Shown here: one piece after another, positions 1 to 6,407 of the stretch
Numbering within the stretch: position 1 is the first letter of the stretch
How the letters are laid out: the number at the start of each line of letters is the position of its first letter
DNA from: an uncultured Paraglaciecola sp.
GTDB taxonomy: Bacteria; Pseudomonadota; Gammaproteobacteria; Enterobacterales; Alteromonadaceae
DNA: 6,408 bases
Reading direction: 5' to 3'
Assembly: GCA_905479025.1 (NCBI GenBank)
Contig: CAJQKX010000620.1
Coordinates: 1 to 6,408 of the forward strand
Translations under genes and position numbers: made by a program
The notes under the pieces: model-generated
Seen by the model: the letters and a program-made list of their open reading frames with translations, nothing else
The model's database searches: none
What the model was told of the DNA's origin: nothing

Positions 1-573
1 ACTTGAGAGAGGCTCTGGCAGAAATTGCTCAAGCTCTTCAGGCTCTATTCTCATATTCTGTATATCGAGAGGAACGTCGATCCAGACCGGGCCTTTTCGC
101 CCATGTTGCGATAAATATATTGCCTTGTTTAACTCGTAAACAACTTTACTAGGATCATCGATCATTACTGCATACTTTGTAATAGGCTCAACAATCGGGA
201 TAATATCAGCTTCTTGCTGCCCAAATGTTCTAAGCGGAATTCCAGTGTGTCTTGTAGTTTCAGCTAATGTATTCTGGCCTGAAACAAATACACACGGCAC
301 TCCATCTTGCCAAGCATTTAGAACACCTGTAACCGCATTTGTTCCAGCACAACCTGTAGATACTAGACATGCACCAAGTCGGTCATTATTTTGAGAATAG
401 GCAACGGCAGCATATGCAGCTGCTTGCTCATGATGCACAGCAACCCCCACGATCTCTTTATGCTTGGCCACCCCATCTGCTAAAAACAACGCTCCACGCC
501 CAGTTACCATAAATATATGGCCGACACCTGCCTCATATAATCTATTAAATATGTAGTCTGCTACTCTAACCAT
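1..573 (-). CDS. Thiamine-pyrophosphate-dependent enzyme, acetolactate synthase-like, N-terminal part (partial)
   Basis: My reverse-strand translation gives 191 residues from an ATG at 573-571 and runs open off the left edge. Family members are usually about 550-600 residues, so roughly the first third is here: the whole pyrimidine-binding (PYR) domain and the beginning of the linker to the central domain. Residues 47-52 read HHEQAA; E49 is the conserved glutamate that activates the TPP aminopyrimidine ring. The stretch STGCAGTNAVTGV at 72-84 matches the SGPGATNxVTG loop of acetolactate synthases but with C and A where that loop usually has P and G. GPVWIDVPLDIQ at 161-172 is the usual end of the domain. 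A TGA lies two codons upstream, which fixes the start, although no good Shine-Dalgarno is visible. Relatives either ligate pyruvate-derived two-carbon units to carbonyls (acetolactate synthase, YerE in yersiniose synthesis) or decarboxylate 2-oxoacids. The substrate here is unknown; the gene context suggests an aldehyde or keto-sugar. It follows the dehydratase gene by 53 bp, probably in one operon. Confidence 0.88.
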   Translation of the reverse strand, partial: MVRVADYIFNRLYEAGVGHIFMVTGRGALFLADGVAKHKEIVGVAVHHEQAAAYAAVAYSQNNDRLGACLVSTGCAGTNAVTGVLNAWQDGVPCVFVSGQNTLAETTRHTGIPLRTFGQQEADIIPIVEPITKYAVMIDDPSKVVYELNKAIYLSQHGRKGPVWIDVPLDIQNMRIEPEELEQFLPEPLSS

Positions 574-626
574 GTTTCAGAAACTATATATCATAAAGAA
601 AAAAATTATCACTACTGATGCAAGGG

Positions 627-1103
627 TCATTTTTTACTCGGCTTAAAATTCTCAAGCACATCTGGCAACGTAATTAAAAAGTCTGCGCTACAAGCTATTT
701 CATCACCTACAAAGCTTTCCGCAGATCCTTTAGCTATACCACGTTTAAATGAGTCTAATGTTGCCTTTATTTCTAATCGCTCACCAGGAATGACTTTTCT
801 CTTGAAATTAGCATTATTAATACTAACAAAGTTAGTTTTCATGCCTTTATAGGGCTCCATACACAGAAATGTCATGATAAATGTTTGAACAAGGCACTCG
901 ATCTGGATGTGCCCAGGAACATTCGGATCACCTTCAAAGTGAGCAGGGAAAAACCACTCATTATATGTAAAGTTCTTAAGCCCTCTCGCACTTTTACCGG
1001 GATCCACATCAAAAATACTATCAACAAACAATTGAGGATAGCGGTTTTGCTGGCATTCTTGTATACCTTTAATATCGAAAGATAATAGTTCTGAATTACT
1101 CAT
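627..1103 (-). CDS. FabZ-like hotdog-fold 3-hydroxyacyl-ACP dehydratase
   Basis: A complete 158-residue protein of FabZ-like length. The FabZ landmarks are in order: NRYPQLFVD at 20-28 (FabZ: HRYPFLLVD), FFPAHFEGDPNVPGHIQIE at 51-69, and FKRKVIPGERLEIKA at 100-114 (FabZ: FRRPVxPGDxL). The putative catalytic pair is H55 and E69; their 14-residue spacing equals that of the His/Glu pair in characterised FabZ enzymes. The usual GHFP is AHFE here, so this is a divergent member and not a housekeeping FabZ. The expected role is dehydration of a beta-hydroxyacyl chain carried on an ACP, in the cytoplasm. The start ATG is preceded by TAAGGTAGGA, which overlaps the ACP stop codon, so the two genes are only 11 bp apart and probably translated together. 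The likely partner is the adjacent dedicated ACP. A non-dehydratase hotdog activity cannot be excluded. Confidence 0.85.
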   Translation of the reverse strand: MSNSELLSFDIKGIQECQQNRYPQLFVDSIFDVDPGKSARGLKNFTYNEWFFPAHFEGDPNVPGHIQIECLVQTFIMTFLCMEPYKGMKTNFVSINNANFKRKVIPGERLEIKATLDSFKRGIAKGSAESFVGDEIACSADFLITLPDVLENFKPSKK

Positions 1104-1114
1104 AAATTCCTACC

Positions 1115-1357
1115 TTATAAATCCATAATAACTTCATACTTTAAAAGTATATTTTTACCTTCTTCGTAACTTGAAAAATCGACTATATCATCAATATCAA
1201 GCTCCACTTCAAATTCATCTTCGAGCTCAGCCATTAACTGCATATGACCTACGCTATCCCAATCAATTATATCCTGATATTTCAGGCCTTTCAGTTTATC
1301 TTCCTCTATATTAAAACTCTCCATAAAAGCTTTATTATATTTCTCTATATTTGTCAT
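1115..1357 (-). CDS. Dedicated acyl carrier protein
   Basis: A small acidic protein of 80 residues from the ATG at 1357-1355. An in-frame TTG two codons upstream (1363) is possible but sits only about 2 nt from the AAGGAA ribosome binding site, whereas the ATG has a normal 7-nt spacing, so I prefer the ATG. The carrier motif is WDSVGHMQLMAELEDEF; the serine (residue 35 from this ATG) would carry 4'-phosphopantetheine. The usual motif is DSL, here DSV. The acidic helix after it (ELEDEFEVELDIDDI) is the usual docking surface for partner enzymes. It is sandwiched between luxC-like and fabZ-like genes, so it probably holds the acyl intermediate for both. Its 5' end lies inside a tandem duplication covering the luxC-ACP junction. 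Family assignment is firm; the cargo is unknown. Confidence 0.92.
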   Translation of the reverse strand: MTNIEKYNKAFMESFNIEEDKLKGLKYQDIIDWDSVGHMQLMAELEDEFEVELDIDDIVDFSSYEEGKNILLKYEVIMDL

Positions 1358-1507
1358 AAGCAACTTCCTTAATTACGATGATTTAATTTTTAAATTTAGA
1401 CTACTCAATTGGAGCTGCTCTATTATATTTCTCATATTTTTTATAAGCAACTTTTTTAGTTACGATGATTTAATTTTTAAATTTAGACTACTCAATTGAA
1501 ACTACTC
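1333..1507. repeat. Tandem direct duplication of the luxC-ACP junction (copies 1333-1420 and 1421-1507)
   Basis: Two abutting copies of 88 and 87 bp align with about eight mismatches and one single-base gap. A core of 39 nt (1373-1411 and 1460-1498) is identical. Read on the minus strand, each unit holds the last codons and stop of the luxC-like gene, an AT-rich spacer, a ribosome binding site and the first codons of the ACP gene. The copy at 1421-1507 supplies the actual luxC C-terminus (RVVSIE, stop) but its ribosome binding site reads AAAAAA and its ACP start codon is ATA. The copy at 1333-1420 retains a relic luxC end (reading RAAPIE, stop) and the working ACP start. This explains most of the 130-bp gap between the two genes. 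Confidence 0.9.
1365..1370 (-). promoter_or_regulatory. Ribosome binding site of the ACP gene
   Basis: On the minus strand this reads AAGGAA, 7 nt before the ATG at 1357-1355. It decides between that ATG and the upstream TTG. In the decayed duplicate copy the same place reads AAAAAA, which supports the view that only this copy is functional. Confidence 0.7.
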
Positions 1508-2702
1508 TTGACATATGGCGGATCAAATCATACCCGTCCCAAATCAAGCCAAACTCTGATGCCCTACCACAAGGCACAATACGATCTAGCCCTACTATTC
1601 CTTTGCCAGCAAAAAAACTAACTAGTTCATCCCTTTTGAAACCAATATATGTTAGCGTCTGGAACTTTCTTGAAACAAAATTTAACAGCTTATCAGGCGC
1701 TTGATTAGAATATTCAAAGTAACTGCCTCCAGCACATGTCCGTTCGGTCACATCAGAATAAAGGCTCTTCAATTCAATTCGATTAATAAGATTATCAGAA
1801 GCGATTGGCAAGGATACACCATCATAATCCAGAGCGGCATTACACGATGCAGAATATTTATTTACTGCCGTCATCAACTGTATAGCATATTTTTTTTCCA
1901 GTAGTGCTTCATGTAAAGATTTCCAAAAAATTTCTTTTGCTTTCAGAATATCTTTAGAACCTCCAACCCAATAAATAAGACGCGGCGCTGAACATGCATT
2001 TTGATCGAATAAATACGTGTCGTTATAGAAATCAAATGCAATTTTTTTCTTGTCTTGAATGGTTAAATACTCTGCAGCTTTAATTATGCAAAATGAATAT
2101 CTATCAGCAAATGTTATATCAAAGGAGCGGGGAGGGAGTGGTGATTTTCGTATTTCTTCAATTGTATTATCACCCCCCCAAACAACTCTTACATCACATA
2201 AATTAGAAAAAAAATTATTGATTTCAGAGTCATGCTCATATCTTACTATTGAAATATACCTCTTCAACTCTTTGAACTCCAACCTATCCAGAAGTTTGCA
2301 AATAGCATTGCTAACAATATCAGTTTGAGGAAAACTCTTAGACGAAACTCGAACTACACAAGCATTACCTGACAAAAGCCCCGCTAACAAACTATAAGCA
2401 AAATTAATTGGAACGTTTGATGGAGCAATATGAAAACTAACACCGCGACCAACATTAGATTTCAAGTCCAAATAAGACCTTCTTAGCCTAGTTATACTCG
2501 ATTTACGGACATAAAAACCAAAGGTTATTATTTCAGGGAAATCTCGTCCTTGTGGATGCTTAATCAATAATCCAGAAAGCTTATCCAAAAACGTGATTAC
2601 AGTATCTTCAAACGGAGCTAAAGGCTTGAGAAAGGGCATTTCGCTAAATTTGTCATTACCCGCCAAAAGCTGAAATTTAAAATTTGGATGCATATGTATC
2701 AC
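1488..2702 (-). CDS. LuxC-family acyl-CoA / acyl-protein thioester reductase
   Basis: A complete 404-residue protein, somewhat shorter than the roughly 480 residues of bioluminescence LuxC. The family reduces an acyl thioester to the aldehyde with NADPH through a cysteine thioester. Visible features are HIAPSNVPINFAYSLLAG at 91-108 (nucleotide-binding segment of the aldehyde dehydrogenase-like fold), VVWGGDNTI at 173-181, FDQNACSAP at 232-240 with C237 as the expected nucleophile, and the C-terminal signature LDRIVPCGRASEFGLIWDG at 372-390. The start is GTG at 2702, chosen because AGGGG lies 5 nt upstream; an ATG three codons later is a less well-placed alternative. The gene overlaps luxE by 26 nt, which suggests coupled translation and an enzyme complex as in lux systems. 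The natural acyl donor is likely LuxE or the downstream ACP; this is inference. A run of seven G residues lies in codons 175-178. Confidence 0.93.
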   Translation of the reverse strand: MIHMHPNFKFQLLAGNDKFSEMPFLKPLAPFEDTVITFLDKLSGLLIKHPQGRDFPEIITFGFYVRKSSITRLRRSYLDLKSNVGRGVSFHIAPSNVPINFAYSLLAGLLSGNACVVRVSSKSFPQTDIVSNAICKLLDRLEFKELKRYISIVRYEHDSEINNFFSNLCDVRVVWGGDNTIEEIRKSPLPPRSFDITFADRYSFCIIKAAEYLTIQDKKKIAFDFYNDTYLFDQNACSAPRLIYWVGGSKDILKAKEIFWKSLHEALLEKKYAIQLMTAVNKYSASCNAALDYDGVSLPIASDNLINRIELKSLYSDVTERTCAGGSYFEYSNQAPDKLLNFVSRKFQTLTYIGFKRDELVSFFAGKGIVGLDRIVPCGRASEFGLIWDGYDLIRHMSRVVSIE

Positions 2703-3759
2703 TACAACCCCTAATCTCGGCTTTTTGTAAACGGCCCGTTACTTTAAAGAATTTACCCTTGCGACCACATGGGCAACAATCCTGACCCAGCAAAACACCT
2801 TTGTCTTCAGTTAATAAAGAATGGCCAGGGTATGACTCAGGAATTACTGACAAGACTTGTATAATTCCCTCCTCACCAATATCTGCAACAGAGAAATCAA
2901 AGGCTCTCCGAATGACGACATCACTAAAACTGCTGGCATGTAAATGTCCGTGTTCACACTCCATGTAAACAGAGCCGGTTTGCTCTACCATTCCATAGTA
3001 ATCAAATATTTTTTCTATACCACATACACTCTGAATTTTTTCTTTAAAATCTTTTTGTGAGACCGATTCATCCTCTAGTTTTTTCCAACCACCACCATGA
3101 ATTAGCGTCCCTTTAGATAAGTCTAAGAAAAGATCACTTTCTTTCAATAATTTATAAAAATGCTGCCAAATCATGAAGGTAAACCCAAATACTAATATTT
3201 CTTTACCTTTATGTTTATCTAAAAATAATTCAAGCGCTTCTAAATCGAGTTCCATATTCTCATTTAAGGCAAAAACTTTATCACGCCCAAAAAGTGAAAA
3301 CCCTAGTATGCCCGCCCCTCGAGCAGAAAACATAGAACGATCCTTTAGAACAGATGAGCTATCTATAATTATCATTGGAAGTCGGGAGCTACCAATATAG
3401 GATTCAACTATTTTTGCTAAAACCTTTGTTTGTAATGTTGCGGTGCTTCTGTCTAGATATATCTTTGAAACTTGTTGGCCGGAAGTACCCGATGAAGTCA
3501 TTGTCTTTATGATTTCACCTTTCTCAACACTCATTAAATCGTATTGCTTAAAAAGTGTCACGGGTAAAAAAGGAATGTTATGGTAGTCAGAAATTCTCTC
3601 AACATTGAAATTCATTGCATCAAGCAATTTTTTATAACTGTTACAGGTTTTATAATGCTGCAAAGAAAGCAATCTAAGACGGTCTGTTAAAAATTCAGAC
3701 TTAGCAGTAGCATCTAAACCAAAAACCGGTTTAGTTAAAAAACAATGGTCATTCAACAA
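2677..3759 (-). CDS. LuxE/PaaK-family acyl-protein synthetase (acyl-adenylating)
   Basis: A complete 360-residue protein, the usual length for LuxE. The family activates a carboxylic acid with ATP as acyl-AMP and passes the acyl group through an enzyme cysteine to a partner reductase or carrier. MTSSGTSGQ at 87-95 is the Ser/Thr/Gly-rich ATP-binding loop; HGGGWKKLE at 221-229 and FDYYGMVEQTGSVYMEC at 252-268 are typical of LuxE. The C-terminus has CCPCGRKGKFFKVTGRLQ at 328-345 and RGCSDT at 350-355; C352, nine residues from the end, sits where bioluminescence LuxE has its acyl-transfer cysteine. No ATG gives a full-length protein: the start is TTG at 3759 (or the TTG next to it), with a weak GTGAG 6 nt upstream and an in-frame TAA shortly before. 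The gene follows the ABC transporter gene after 104 bp and overlaps luxC. The acid it activates is unknown. Confidence 0.92.
   Translation of the reverse strand: MLNDHCFLTKPVFGLDATAKSEFLTDRLRLLSLQHYKTCNSYKKLLDAMNFNVERISDYHNIPFLPVTLFKQYDLMSVEKGEIIKTMTSSGTSGQQVSKIYLDRSTATLQTKVLAKIVESYIGSSRLPMIIIDSSSVLKDRSMFSARGAGILGFSLFGRDKVFALNENMELDLEALELFLDKHKGKEILVFGFTFMIWQHFYKLLKESDLFLDLSKGTLIHGGGWKKLEDESVSQKDFKEKIQSVCGIEKIFDYYGMVEQTGSVYMECEHGHLHASSFSDVVIRRAFDFSVADIGEEGIIQVLSVIPESYPGHSLLTEDKGVLLGQDCCPCGRKGKFFKVTGRLQKAEIRGCSDTYASKF
2708..2712 (-). promoter_or_regulatory. Ribosome binding site of the luxC-like gene
   Basis: AGGGG on the minus strand, inside the end of the luxE-like gene and 5 nt before the GTG at 2702-2700. 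The later in-frame ATG at 2693 would be 14 nt away, too far, so the site supports the GTG start. Confidence 0.55.
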
Positions 3760-3863: not shown

Positions 3864-5636
3864 TTATCGCTCAATCATATCTTTATAACTACCACTTCGC
3901 GCAATTTGTCCATCTTCCAACTCGACAATCTGTGTACAATTTTTAAGTGTAGTCAAACGATGAGCTACAATAATCACCGTGATCTCATCACCTAGATTTT
4001 CAATGGACTCCATCACCGCACGTTCGGTATCATTATCCAGTGCACTGGTGGCCTCATCAAACACAATTACATCAGCTTCTTTATATAGTGCACGGGCGAC
4101 GCCTATACGCTGGCGTTGCCCACCAGACAGTTGAACGCCTCGCTCACCCACTTCAGTATTGTATTGTTCGCCCCATGATTCAATGGTATCGGAAATCTGT
4201 GCTTTTTGGGCGGCTTGACGCACGTGTTCATGGTCTATTTGTTCTGTCGGTATACCGAAAGCAATATTCTCTGCAATACTTGTATCTGCTAAAAAAATGG
4301 ATTGTGGCACATGGGCAATATGCGCTTGCCAACCACGTTGGTTTAGCTCGGTAATGTTTACATCATCAATTGCCAAAGTGCCATTAGTAGGCTGCAACAG
4401 CCCCATAATAATGTCTAATAACGTGCTTTTGCCACAGCCGGTGTCGCCAATAAAACCAATACGACTACCTTTTTCGATGTTGAGACTAAGGCTAGGCTGC
4501 AATACCCAAGGTGTGTTTTGTGAGTATCTGAAAGCCAAGTTAGTTAAGGTAATATTGTGTTTAAAGAGTATGGGTGCAGGTAATGACTCTTCAGCATGAG
4601 CGGGTAATTTTTGGTTAAGTAGGTTTAGCGTCTCCTTTAAAATAGATTGGCTACCACGCAAGTTTGACAAACTAGCATAAGCTTGCTGCAGGACGGGTAG
4701 TAATCGTGCCGCTCCCAAAGCCAATGCACCTAGTATAGGTATTGAGTCGGTAATACCTGATGGACTAGTGGCTAGTGTATAGGCAACGCCAGCAATCAGA
4801 ACCATACCTAAGGATTCTATGCCATAACGGGGGAAACCACTGAGAATGATAATATTACCATGTGCACGCTTCAAGGGTAATTCTGAATTACGAAATATAT
4901 TACTATAGCTAGATTGAGTACCATCAATCAACACATCACGAATACCGCCCAAGCCTTCCTGTAAGGCTTTAATTACTTGATTTGATTCATGGTCAACACG
5001 TTTACTAGCGCGCTCTAAAGCTTTTTTGGTAGCAAAAATAACCACCCAATATATGGCCCCAAAACCCGCGAAAACGATAATCGCAATCATCGGATTAATA
5101 GTAAACAACGCAAATGCGATGAATGAAAGCATGAAAATGGAGCCGCATAAGTTGAGCACTGGTAAAAGCGTTTGTAACACCACACCATTTGCTTTGATCG
5201 AAATGCCAGCAATCACTTCACTACTATTGCGCGCCACATGCACGATATAAGGTTGATAGAGCGTACGATAATAAATACTGGTGGTAAAATCAGCACCAAT
5301 TGAGTGGCTAAGTCGTGTTTGTCCCCAGAGTAAAATGAAGCGCATCATGCCAGATAACAATGCGCCGACGCAAAAAGCGATAGTGAACGGTAATATTAGC
5401 TGCTCAGGCTCTGTTATGCTGAGCGCCTGGATAAATGGCTGCGCCAATGGATGAAGCATCACGCGATCTGGCGCGGTTAATGCCCCTAGAAAAGGCAACA
5501 CAGCACCTATACTAATCACCTCGGCGAGGGATGCCAGAATCACTACTACAAATAATAGCCCAAATTGCACTCGACGTCGCAGGTTAATATGCTGCCAAAG
5601 CCGGCGTAAAAGTTGGGGTATGGTTGGGTTAAGCAT
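3864..5636 (-). CDS. ABC exporter, PglK/MsbA-like lipid-linked oligosaccharide flippase
   Basis: A complete half-transporter with a membrane domain fused to an ATPase domain, 590 residues from the ATG at 5636. An ATG 13 codons upstream (5675) would give 603 residues, but it has no visible Shine-Dalgarno, while the 5636 start has AGTGGA about 8 nt before it and matches the usual N-terminus of the family. Hydrophobic segments near residues 26-50, 82-103, 155-178, 184-200, 262-288 and 298-318 give the expected six helices. The ATPase domain has Walker A GDTGCGKST (397-405), Q-loop VPQ (443-445), signature LSGGQ (503-507), Walker B VIVFDEA (523-529) with E528, and H-loop AHR (558-560). It should therefore be active. 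PglK relatives flip lipid-linked glycans across the inner membrane; the wzz neighbour fits this. Lipid or peptide export remains possible. The gene is richer in G+C than the lux-like genes downstream. Confidence 0.88.
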   Translation of the reverse strand: MLNPTIPQLLRRLWQHINLRRRVQFGLLFVVVILASLAEVISIGAVLPFLGALTAPDRVMLHPLAQPFIQALSITEPEQLILPFTIAFCVGALLSGMMRFILLWGQTRLSHSIGADFTTSIYYRTLYQPYIVHVARNSSEVIAGISIKANGVVLQTLLPVLNLCGSIFMLSFIAFALFTINPMIAIIVFAGFGAIYWVVIFATKKALERASKRVDHESNQVIKALQEGLGGIRDVLIDGTQSSYSNIFRNSELPLKRAHGNIIILSGFPRYGIESLGMVLIAGVAYTLATSPSGITDSIPILGALALGAARLLPVLQQAYASLSNLRGSQSILKETLNLLNQKLPAHAEESLPAPILFKHNITLTNLAFRYSQNTPWVLQPSLSLNIEKGSRIGFIGDTGCGKSTLLDIIMGLLQPTNGTLAIDDVNITELNQRGWQAHIAHVPQSIFLADTSIAENIAFGIPTEQIDHEHVRQAAQKAQISDTIESWGEQYNTEVGERGVQLSGGQRQRIGVARALYKEADVIVFDEATSALDNDTERAVMESIENLGDEITVIIVAHRLTTLKNCTQIVELEDGQIARSGSYKDMIER

Positions 5637-5903
5637 ATTAAGTTTCCACTCTAATAAAGATGAGGCTAACACCATTACTTGTAACTTTTGGGATTAAATG
5701 AACGTTCAAATGTACGTTGATGCACTTGGCTTGTGTGTTGGCCATCTTTTAAAATTATTCTGATCAAGAGAGCGCAACTTTTAGGCGCGAGAGAACAACA
5801 AAAATTTATGAGGTCTTAACTTACCCAGCATTGGAATCAGTAGCAATAATAGCCTTTATCAGATGTTAGCTTATTGTAAATTTAAGAATTAAAAACCAAA
5901 AAA
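5637..5903. other. Intergenic region upstream of the ABC transporter gene, no gene seen
   Basis: This stretch lies between the wzz stop and the preferred transporter start. No open reading frame with family resemblance and no RNA gene was recognised. It holds an 18-bp imperfect palindrome at 5701-5718. I looked for a JUMPstart/ops element (GGCGGTAGC) and for a clear terminator after wzz and found neither. A promoter for the transporter gene probably lies here, but I could not find a -35/-10 pair I would defend. Confidence 0.5.
5701..5718. promoter_or_regulatory. 18-bp imperfect palindrome, possible operator
   Basis: AACGTTCAAATGTACGTT pairs with itself at eight of nine positions (one mismatch at the sixth base). 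It lies 26 bp before the upstream possible start (5675) and 65 bp before the preferred start (5636) of the ABC transporter gene, a position that suits a regulator site. It is not a recognisable lux box. No regulator gene is present in the window to pair with it. Confidence 0.35.
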
Positions 5904-6407
5904 TTATGAAATCTTTTCACTGAAAGCATAATGCTTTATAAGAACTAATAAAATACTTAGCATCCCACCTAATAGCGCGATTAAGATAGTAATTAAAGAC
6001 CTTGCAGGCTCTGATTTTTTTTCCATTACCGCAGGAGGGTCAATGTAATCAAAAACGTAATATTGATTGGCTTCAATTAGGGTTAACTTTTTAGTTTCTT
6101 CTTGAAGGAGTTGAGCTATAACTTGCTTGATTTCAGATAAACCAGTTATTGAAATTTGTTGATTAAGATAGCTAACAGCCTTTTCTGACTCTGATTTATC
6201 TTTTTGTCTATAAAAAGCATTAACTTCATTAATTACTAACTCAACCCATTGCTTCGCAATAAATGGTGATTGATGTTTGATTGCTAGGGTGATAAAGCCA
6301 GATTTTTTATCTTCACTTAAACTTAAGTGTTCGGTTTTAAATACTTCAAAGCTTTCTTGAGCACTTGGTATCTGTTGCTGAGGATAAGAAAAGTCTCTAA
6401 TCCAAGT
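5904..6407 (-). CDS. Wzz-family polysaccharide chain-length regulator, C-terminal part (partial)
   Basis: My reverse-strand translation gives 167 residues, open at the right edge and ending ...HYAFSEKIS at a TAA (5906-5904). Wzz proteins are usually 320-380 residues with one membrane helix at each end and a helical periplasmic domain between. What is visible is the second half: the end of the membrane-proximal fold (SGFITLAIKHQSPFIAKQWV), a long polar helical stretch with many Q, E and K residues, then YVFDYIDPPAVMEKKSEPAR, the proline-rich segment that precedes the last helix, and finally the hydrophobic helix SLITILIALLGGMLSILLVL. The family sits in the inner membrane and sets the length of Wzy-polymerised O-antigen or related glycans. 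It is the first gene of the visible series and is separated from the transporter by more than 220 bp, so it may be transcribed separately. Confidence 0.9.
   Translation of the reverse strand, partial: TWIRDFSYPQQQIPSAQESFEVFKTEHLSLSEDKKSGFITLAIKHQSPFIAKQWVELVINEVNAFYRQKDKSESEKAVSYLNQQISITGLSEIKQVIAQLLQEETKKLTLIEANQYYVFDYIDPPAVMEKKSEPARSLITILIALLGGMLSILLVLIKHYAFSEKIS

Follow-up and report, generated by a model that had tools for sequence, protein, structure and literature searches.

The 6,408-nucleotide stretch of DNA from an uncultured Paraglaciecola sp. that was analysed here in full (contig CAJQKX010000620.1, hereafter the window) carries genes for a LuxE-like acyl-protein synthetase, a LuxC-like acyl reductase, an acyl carrier protein (ACP), a FabZ-like dehydratase and the N-terminal part of a thiamine diphosphate (ThDP)-dependent enzyme. 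Here, we report that these five genes are part of a conserved cassette and not a chance grouping, that the ThDP enzyme is related to YerE and JanthE, and that its close relatives in other genomes are accompanied by a NeuB-like synthase or an aldolase. A mechanism is proposed in which an aldehyde formed by LuxE and LuxC would be condensed with phosphoenolpyruvate (PEP) by the NeuB-like enzyme, and the resulting chain transferred by the ThDP enzyme into a surface glycan, with the aldehyde on the donor side of the reaction. We give this reading not quite an even chance of being right. The evidence consists of gene anatomy and co-occurrence, from which each reaction is inferred.

Genome contigs were scanned with a LuxE alignment, and the best 80 of 565 confirmed loci, from many phyla and from the close end of the family, were examined. 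Open reading frames (ORFs) were called in them by a simple script and clustered, and 20 clusters were named by Pfam from one representative each. AMP-ligase was found in 76 of these loci, LuxC in 74, ACP in 62, short-chain dehydrogenase/reductase (SDR) in 59, the C and N parts of transketolase in 35 and 34, DegT in 34, thioesterase in 17, NeuB in 13, FabZ in 12, a lactate/malate-dehydrogenase-like gene in 11 and a YerE-like ThDP gene in 9. LuxE itself was labelled in 75, the simple ORF caller having lost some, and LuxE and LuxC were labelled as adjacent on the same strand in 70, the other 10 including contig ends and similar losses. All five families of the window were labelled together in six loci (L009, L017, L019, L026, L050 and L062). 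The preliminary description of this DNA had expected the families to recur together in other genomes, and to the extent that this could be checked they do. Since the cassette occurs in several phyla, it has probably been spread horizontally. A LuxE-profile search of 369 Gammaproteobacteria genomes gave a match in four, the genome under study included; in the three others (L192–L194) AMP-ligase, LuxE and LuxC are consecutive, two also having ACP, DegT and a NeuB gene, and these loci resemble the layout published for Aeromonas.

The nine loci with a YerE-like ThDP gene belong to five phyla, as judged by record title and tree label. NeuB accompanied the ThDP gene in eight of the nine against 5 of the 71 other loci (p = 3.7e-7), and FabZ in eight of the nine against 4 of 71 (p = 1.5e-7). 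FabZ, ThDP and NeuB genes are consecutive in six of the nine, from four phyla, with 2–22 nucleotides from ThDP gene to NeuB. The same order is seen in L068 but for opposite-strand ORFs from the simple ORF caller, and it is rearranged in L050. The ninth locus, L080, is without NeuB and FabZ; its ThDP gene and an SDR gene are followed by an acetaldehyde dehydrogenase and a DmpG-type aldolase. Among outgroup ThDP genes, the nearest two adjoin an HpcH/HpaI aldolase (L119) and a sugar epimerase/dehydratase (L089). Two L009 genes, with products of 312 and 291 residues, were considered as another such dehydrogenase and aldolase and were rejected, since Pfam identifies an LPG-synthase-type membrane protein and a methyltransferase.

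The partner joined to an aldehyde is PEP for NeuB-type synthases and pyruvate for DmpG-type and many HpcH/HpaI enzymes, and all three reactions yield 4-hydroxy-2-oxo acids. The aldehyde is placed on the donor side because such enzymes accompany the ThDP clade: NeuB in eight of nine loci, the DmpG-type aldolase in the ninth and the HpcH/HpaI enzyme in L119. The preliminary description let the aldehyde be the acceptor of a pyruvate-derived two-carbon unit. This route, in which the ThDP enzyme would form an acyloin for reduction and attachment to the glycan while NeuB serves another sugar, is in our opinion unlikely. ThDP carboligases do often accept aldehydes, and a split transketolase, which would use the aldehyde as acceptor, is present in 35 of the 44 ThDP-bearing LuxE loci; in L005, L006, L047 and L077 a second LuxE–LuxC pair lies beside the split transketolase genes, as if two aldehydes were made. 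A pyruvate donor would, however, need neither NeuB nor aldolase, one of which stands with the YerE-like gene in all nine loci. No evidence was seen for a diffusible acyloin signal, which the preliminary description had offered as an alternative.

The two types of ThDP enzyme exclude each other. By clusters, transketolase parts occurred in 35 loci, a YerE-like gene in nine, both in none and neither, within the sequence examined, in 36, and the transketolase N part was found in 0 of 9 YerE-like loci against 34 of the 71 others (p = 0.0086). A recount by profile gave 36 transketolase and 10 YerE-like loci, again none with both. Such exclusion is as expected for alternatives at one step.

The ThDP fragment in the window retains the catalytic Glu in HHEQ. 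Its best solved relative is structure 8rph, with 142.8 bits against 96.6 for acetolactate synthase II, and 8rph is also the closest structure to the full-length copy of L009 (371 bits against 245 for acetolactate synthase). In the part of PMC12188165 available to us, 8rph is JanthE, a YerE-like enzyme coupling 2-oxo acids to ketones. With the L009 (Smithella) copy the fragment shares 73% identity, and in a quick tree of 50 rows, with 36 randomly sampled controls and no named YerE or JanthE rows, it clusters with the nine LuxE-linked copies at a Shimodaira–Hasegawa-like approximate likelihood ratio (SH-aLRT) support of 100, and with eight of them (L080 excluded) at 99. The ThDP-binding GDG..NN motif is present in all nine full-length kin, its position lying beyond the window's edge. 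Acetolactate synthase was rejected as an identity, the L009 copy scoring 344.4 bits under the curated large-subunit cut-off of 538.35; the fragment itself gave 111.2 bits over 191 residues, too short to judge alone. The earlier label of acetolactate synthase-like thus gives way to YerE/JanthE-like, and the YerE-type partner also suggested at that stage is borne out by the structure match and the tree clade. With YerE, ErwE and JanthE the window's enzyme shares kinship to JanthE, the catalytic Glu and a glycan locus; it differs from them in that its clade is separate and found with LuxE/LuxC, FabZ and NeuB-like genes.

The donors of these relatives differ. YerE prefers pyruvate, which favours the aldehyde as acceptor, whereas pyruvate is not used by its relative ErwE, whose preferred donors are 4-hydroxy-2-oxobutanoate, -pentanoate or -hexanoate; in the portion of the source available, the ErwE donor is not tied to a NeuB or aldolase gene (PMC12247030). 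A reaction of the PigD-like Stetter type, in which FabZ with LuxE/LuxC would give a 2-enal and the ThDP enzyme would add an acyl anion at its beta carbon, accords with FabZ in eight of the nine ThDP loci. It is extremely unlikely in our judgement, as the best solved relatives are JanthE and acetolactate synthases, neither PigD nor MenD is named among the 60 of 149 structure matches listed for the L009 copy or the 51 listed for the window fragment, and NeuB would be left unexplained.

The NeuB-like partners stand apart from ordinary nonulosonic acid synthases. All eight LuxE-linked NeuBs tested score 295–321 bits, under the cut-offs of both the NeuB (399.65) and PseI (340.25) models, while two further NeuBs from these loci exceed the NeuB cut-off, with 509 and 442 bits. 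With NeuB and PseI synthases they share the family and the residues of the PEP and metal site, which we take to be the PEP and metal ligands of the meningococcal enzyme, E134 being replaced by Asp or Glu. They differ in forming a separate group and in that a NeuA-type gene (CTP_transf_3) is absent from the contig of the LuxE-linked NeuB in five of six draft genomes; in the sixth it is on the same contig, closer to an ordinary NeuB. Because these proteins form a separate group below the cut-offs and mostly have no CTP_transf_3 gene on the contig, a substrate other than N-acetylmannosamine is suggested. Ordinary synthesis of sialic or pseudaminic acid by the partner NeuB was ruled out on the same scores and the same absence in five of six. 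In L023 (Treponema), a possible radical SAM protein (5844–7055; 27.9 bits, cut-off 29.5) is encoded between NeuB and a glycosyltransferase.

A link between LuxC and NeuB was also sought by way of contig sizes. Among the genomes of 120 LuxC and 120 NeuB homologues listed, five identical largest-contig sizes of at least 5 kb were found against 0.19 expected, the null distribution by jittering having a maximum of 4 in 20,000 trials. The closest relative in these coincidences has a LuxC 63% identical to that of the window (P0136 with P0292).

Further members of the LuxE-linked ThDP clade were sought in five phylum draws, which covered 1,435 genomes, seeds included, with the few best candidates scored per genome. 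The draws also yielded 88 control loci whose YerE-like ThDP genes fall outside the LuxE clade, and a ThDP ORF was called in 87 of these. Among 134 immediate same-strand neighbours of at least 150 residues there were 10 NeuB, 8 HMGL-like and 5 HpcH/HpaI proteins, the last including the L119 aldolase. Comparison was made with 99 neighbours of aminotransferase, dehydratase, nucleotidyltransferase and glycosyltransferase genes in LuxE loci without a YerE-like gene: none was NeuB, and no aldolase was present in the 25 of 50 families listed, where a family of two members or fewer could hide. It therefore looks like a wider pattern that YerE-like enzymes have an enzyme producing 4-hydroxy-2-oxo acids next to them; the comparison is a rough one, the two samples coming from different genomes. 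The NeuB proteins beside YerE-like ThDP genes outside LuxE loci include those at L122 3514–4380, L127 511–1350 and L099 2–1474, two being of just 279–288 residues without a listed SAF domain and one having a cupin domain.

LuxE and LuxC were absent within 1.5 kb of the 87 control ThDP genes. This is an unfair control because true loci also have LuxE/LuxC further off, and therefore the control genomes themselves were searched for LuxE. This covered 80 of the 84 non-seed genomes that have other YerE-like copies; 79 had no LuxE at E 1e-60, and the remaining one had a weak match (230 bits) on a different contig. The 1,435 genomes yielded no free-standing member of the LuxE-linked ThDP clade, the scores after the four seeds falling to 738, 685, then 586 and lower.

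The proteins that would supply the aldehyde retain their acyl sites. Cys352 of the LuxE-like protein (EIRGCSD) and Cys237 of the LuxC-like protein (DQNACSAP) are each invariant in 28 of 28 aligned sequences, and by profile alignment they correspond to EQKGCS of LuxE and DQQAC of LuxC in structure 7xc6, positions which we take to be the acyl-cysteines. Aldehyde formation by LuxE and LuxC, as first proposed for this locus, is thus plausible. Both families, their gene adjacency and both acyl-site cysteines are shared with the fatty-acid reductase of bacterial luciferase (7xc6), from which the window differs in lacking luxAB, in scoring below the Lux equivalog cut-offs and in that genes for ACP, FabZ and a ThDP enzyme belong to the run. 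Because their scores are far under the NCBIfam models of the bioluminescence proteins (69.6 of 550 bits for LuxE, 56.2 of 750 for LuxC), the two are regarded as relatives and not as lux genes, and bioluminescence was ruled out on these cut-offs and on the absence of luxAB from the window.

The family is a large one, with at least 7,999 LuxE and at least 5,642 LuxC matches in homologue searches; 35 plasmid records carry LuxE relatives, every one below 60% identity, and no relative was found in the viral contigs scanned with a LuxC profile. In P0102 LuxE is fused to a thioesterase domain (PF04443 + PF00975). This fusion and the frequent thioesterase genes (17 of 80 LuxE loci, with a metallo-beta-lactamase-fold gene in 7 of 80) recall LuxD; no LuxD-type acyl hydrolase is present in the window.

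The ACP of the window reaches 67% identity with ACPs from LuxE loci, and among 62 related ACPs at least 97% conserve the Asp-Ser of the attachment motif. An ATG two codons inside the TTG start is a likely alternative start. The FabZ-like protein falls below two FabZ equivalog models (106.8 bits, cut-off 113; 102.1 bits, cut-off 155.15) and keeps the catalytic His of the HF motif and Glu of the IE motif; of 18 FabZ relatives, L026|6 alone is without the motif His. FabZ beside the ThDP gene would also fit a 3-hydroxy product, and with the same NeuB/FabZ co-occurrence it is compatible with an aldehyde homologation: the NeuB-like enzyme would add PEP, the ThDP enzyme would only decarboxylate to a 3-hydroxyaldehyde longer by two carbons, FabZ and reductases would finish, and repeats would amount to PEP-driven elongation. 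We hold this to be highly unlikely, as the ThDP enzyme clusters with YerE-like carboligases and FabZ enzymes act on ACP thioesters.

The donor-side reading, to which we return, comprises four steps. In the first, an AMP-ligase and the ACP would serve to load a carboxylic acid and process it, the chain being acted on by FabZ and a reductase. Judged by family and kept cysteines, LuxE and LuxC would then reduce the ACP- or protein-bound acyl group to an aldehyde via Cys thioesters. As co-occurrence suggests, a NeuB-like enzyme, its gene predicted to lie left of the window, would condense the aldehyde with PEP to a 4-hydroxy-2-oxo acid, which the YerE/JanthE-like enzyme may decarboxylate, transferring the acyl anion to a carbonyl acceptor. 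Such a transfer would yield a C-branched or higher-carbon sugar bearing an acyl-derived side chain, for export by the adjacent flippase under length control by Wzz.

Several observations weigh against this sequence of events. The window contains neither NeuB nor an AMP-ligase, and where the relatives mostly have the AMP-ligase, upstream of luxE, the window has the flippase. The nearer relatives of the window show no NeuB coincidence among the 120 homologues listed, the link being confined to more distant ones. NeuB and the YerE-like gene also occur apart: the 71 loci lacking a YerE-like gene include five NeuB genes, and LuxE-type NeuB is found without a ThDP gene in the sequence examined of L002, L030 and L074. 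The NeuB ORF of L068 has only 206 residues. The link of the nine ThDP loci to LuxE holds by construction, as the loci were found through LuxE, and only the NeuB/FabZ link and the exclusion of transketolase are free of this ascertainment; the 1,435 genomes gave the four seeds and no independent new member of the LuxE-linked ThDP clade. The acceptor, most likely a nucleotide keto-sugar, is a guess, and no constant source of keto-sugar appears in the 25 of 88 Pfam families listed for the ThDP/NeuB loci (78 of 116 neighbours). Finally, glycan loci do shuffle and recombine freely.

This last point also bears on a reading closer to the literature. The Enterobacteriaceae flagellin glycosylation islands contain a set of ACP, FabG, AMP-ligase, LuxE and LuxC, with LuxE in 73 strains and FabZ in one, and a liposugar component has been suggested for them (PMC4875605, available part). 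The same fatty-acid gene set and the same suggestion are reported for the Aeromonas group II islands (PMC7874193, available part), where a strain of the LuxE/LuxC-carrying group has a flagellin glycan with an unknown 102-Da unit; the portion of that source seen makes the liposugar suggestion and gives no assignment of the unit. The LuxE/LuxC/ACP core is thus known from flagellin glycosylation islands. If the fatty acyl group were an ordinary substituent, LuxE and LuxC would serve acyl activation, and the ThDP and NeuB genes would be bystanders of a shuffled glycan island. The FabZ–ThDP–NeuB order kept in six of nine loci and four phyla, together with the exclusion of transketolase from YerE-like loci, makes this quite unlikely to us.

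The window likewise has ACP, LuxE and LuxC, with FabG and AMP-ligase, which the islands add, not seen up to its edge, and it has no pse or flagellin genes, Wzz and the flippase being there instead. In the available parts of both sources no ThDP enzyme is mentioned for the set, and NeuB-family PseI serves pseudaminic acid. No published account of LuxE/LuxC combined with ThDP and NeuB was found in the open literature searched, most subscription journals being outside its scope; the cassette is ordinary in its parts and unusual in combination. At least one carrier, L050, does fit a flagellin island, since it is flanked to left and right by flagellin genes of its contig.

Two further features of the relatives may be mentioned. 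The lactate/malate-dehydrogenase-like gene lies just after or near LuxC in L010, L016, L017, L028, L031, L032, L039, L048, L050, L068 and L074, the L017 copy scoring 290 bits against an L-lactate dehydrogenase cut-off of 303.55; the enzyme may reduce a 2-oxo acid of the pathway. L017 and L026, from one Melainabacteria and one proteobacterial genome, share a nearly identical gene run: ketoacyl synthases, a small ORF, SDR, ACP, FabZ, ThDP, NeuB, a metallo-beta-lactamase fold, ligase, LuxE and LuxC.

The minus strand of the window holds seven same-direction genes or gene pieces, which read from the end of a Wzz-like gene through an ABC exporter to LuxE, LuxC, ACP, FabZ and the start of the ThDP gene (Table 1). 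All five genes that had been described are present at the stated positions, the ThDP gene cut by the window's edge, with Pfam support for each member, as for the other families except the Wzz piece, marginally under its cut-off; NCBIfam agrees, mostly below cut-off. LuxE and LuxC genes overlap by 26 nucleotides. Two 75-nucleotide direct copies, 89% identical and 87 nucleotides apart start to start (1347–1421 and 1434–1508), form an apparent tandem duplication that takes in the end of luxC and the start of the ACP gene together with the gap between them.

Table 1. Genes and gene pieces of the window, with the profile matches on which their naming is based
Feature	Position	Strand	Evidence
YerE/JanthE-like ThDP-dependent carboligase/decarboxylase, N-terminal 191 residues	1..573	-	Pfam TPP_enzyme_N PF02776, E 3.1e-28; cut by left edge
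FabZ/FabA-like dehydratase, 158 residues	627..1103	-	Pfam FabA/FabZ-like PF07977, E 6.5e-17
Acyl carrier protein, 82 residues from TTG	1115..1363	-	Pfam PP-binding PF00550, E 1.9e-4, 22.1 bits (cut-off 20.8)
LuxC-like acyl reductase, 404 residues	1488..2702	-	Pfam LuxC PF05893, E 3.9e-30
LuxE-like acyl-protein synthetase, 360 residues	2677..3759	-	Pfam LuxE PF04443, E 3.7e-54
PglK/MsbA/HepA-type ABC exporter	3864..5675	-	NCBIfam HepA 259 and PglK 257 bits, both far below cut-off; MsbA 247 bits, below cut-off
Wzz-type chain-length regulator, C-terminal part	5904..6407	-	Pfam GNVR 26.8 bits (cut-off 27.7); NCBIfam Wzz(fepE) E 5.7e-7, far below cut-off

The surface-glycan setting of the preliminary description agrees with the Wzz-like piece and the flippase that adjoin the run. 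The ABC exporter is probably a lipid-linked glycan flippase, and with Wzz and this flippase the window fits a polymer locus. Continuation into luxAB or a primary fatty-acid operon, which that description had named as counting against its reading, is not seen within the window, which ends inside the ThDP gene. When E. coli genomes were searched with the window by megablast, no match was obtained.

The cassette may, more generally, make sugar-like monomers that do not start from sugar. An acid on ACP would become a LuxE/LuxC aldehyde, be extended with PEP by the NeuB-like enzyme and be transferred by the YerE-like ThDP enzyme to give a polyketide-sugar hybrid residue on the cell surface, the split transketolase performing the equivalent step in most other ThDP-bearing loci. 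This broader proposal is tentative, and we regard it as somewhat unlikely. For the LuxE and LuxC genes noted in flagellin glycosylation islands, no product has been defined. If true, the proposed pathway would offer testable chemistry for a widespread cassette, would name the likely donor of its ThDP clade and would direct attention to surface sugars whose carbon skeletons derive from acids.

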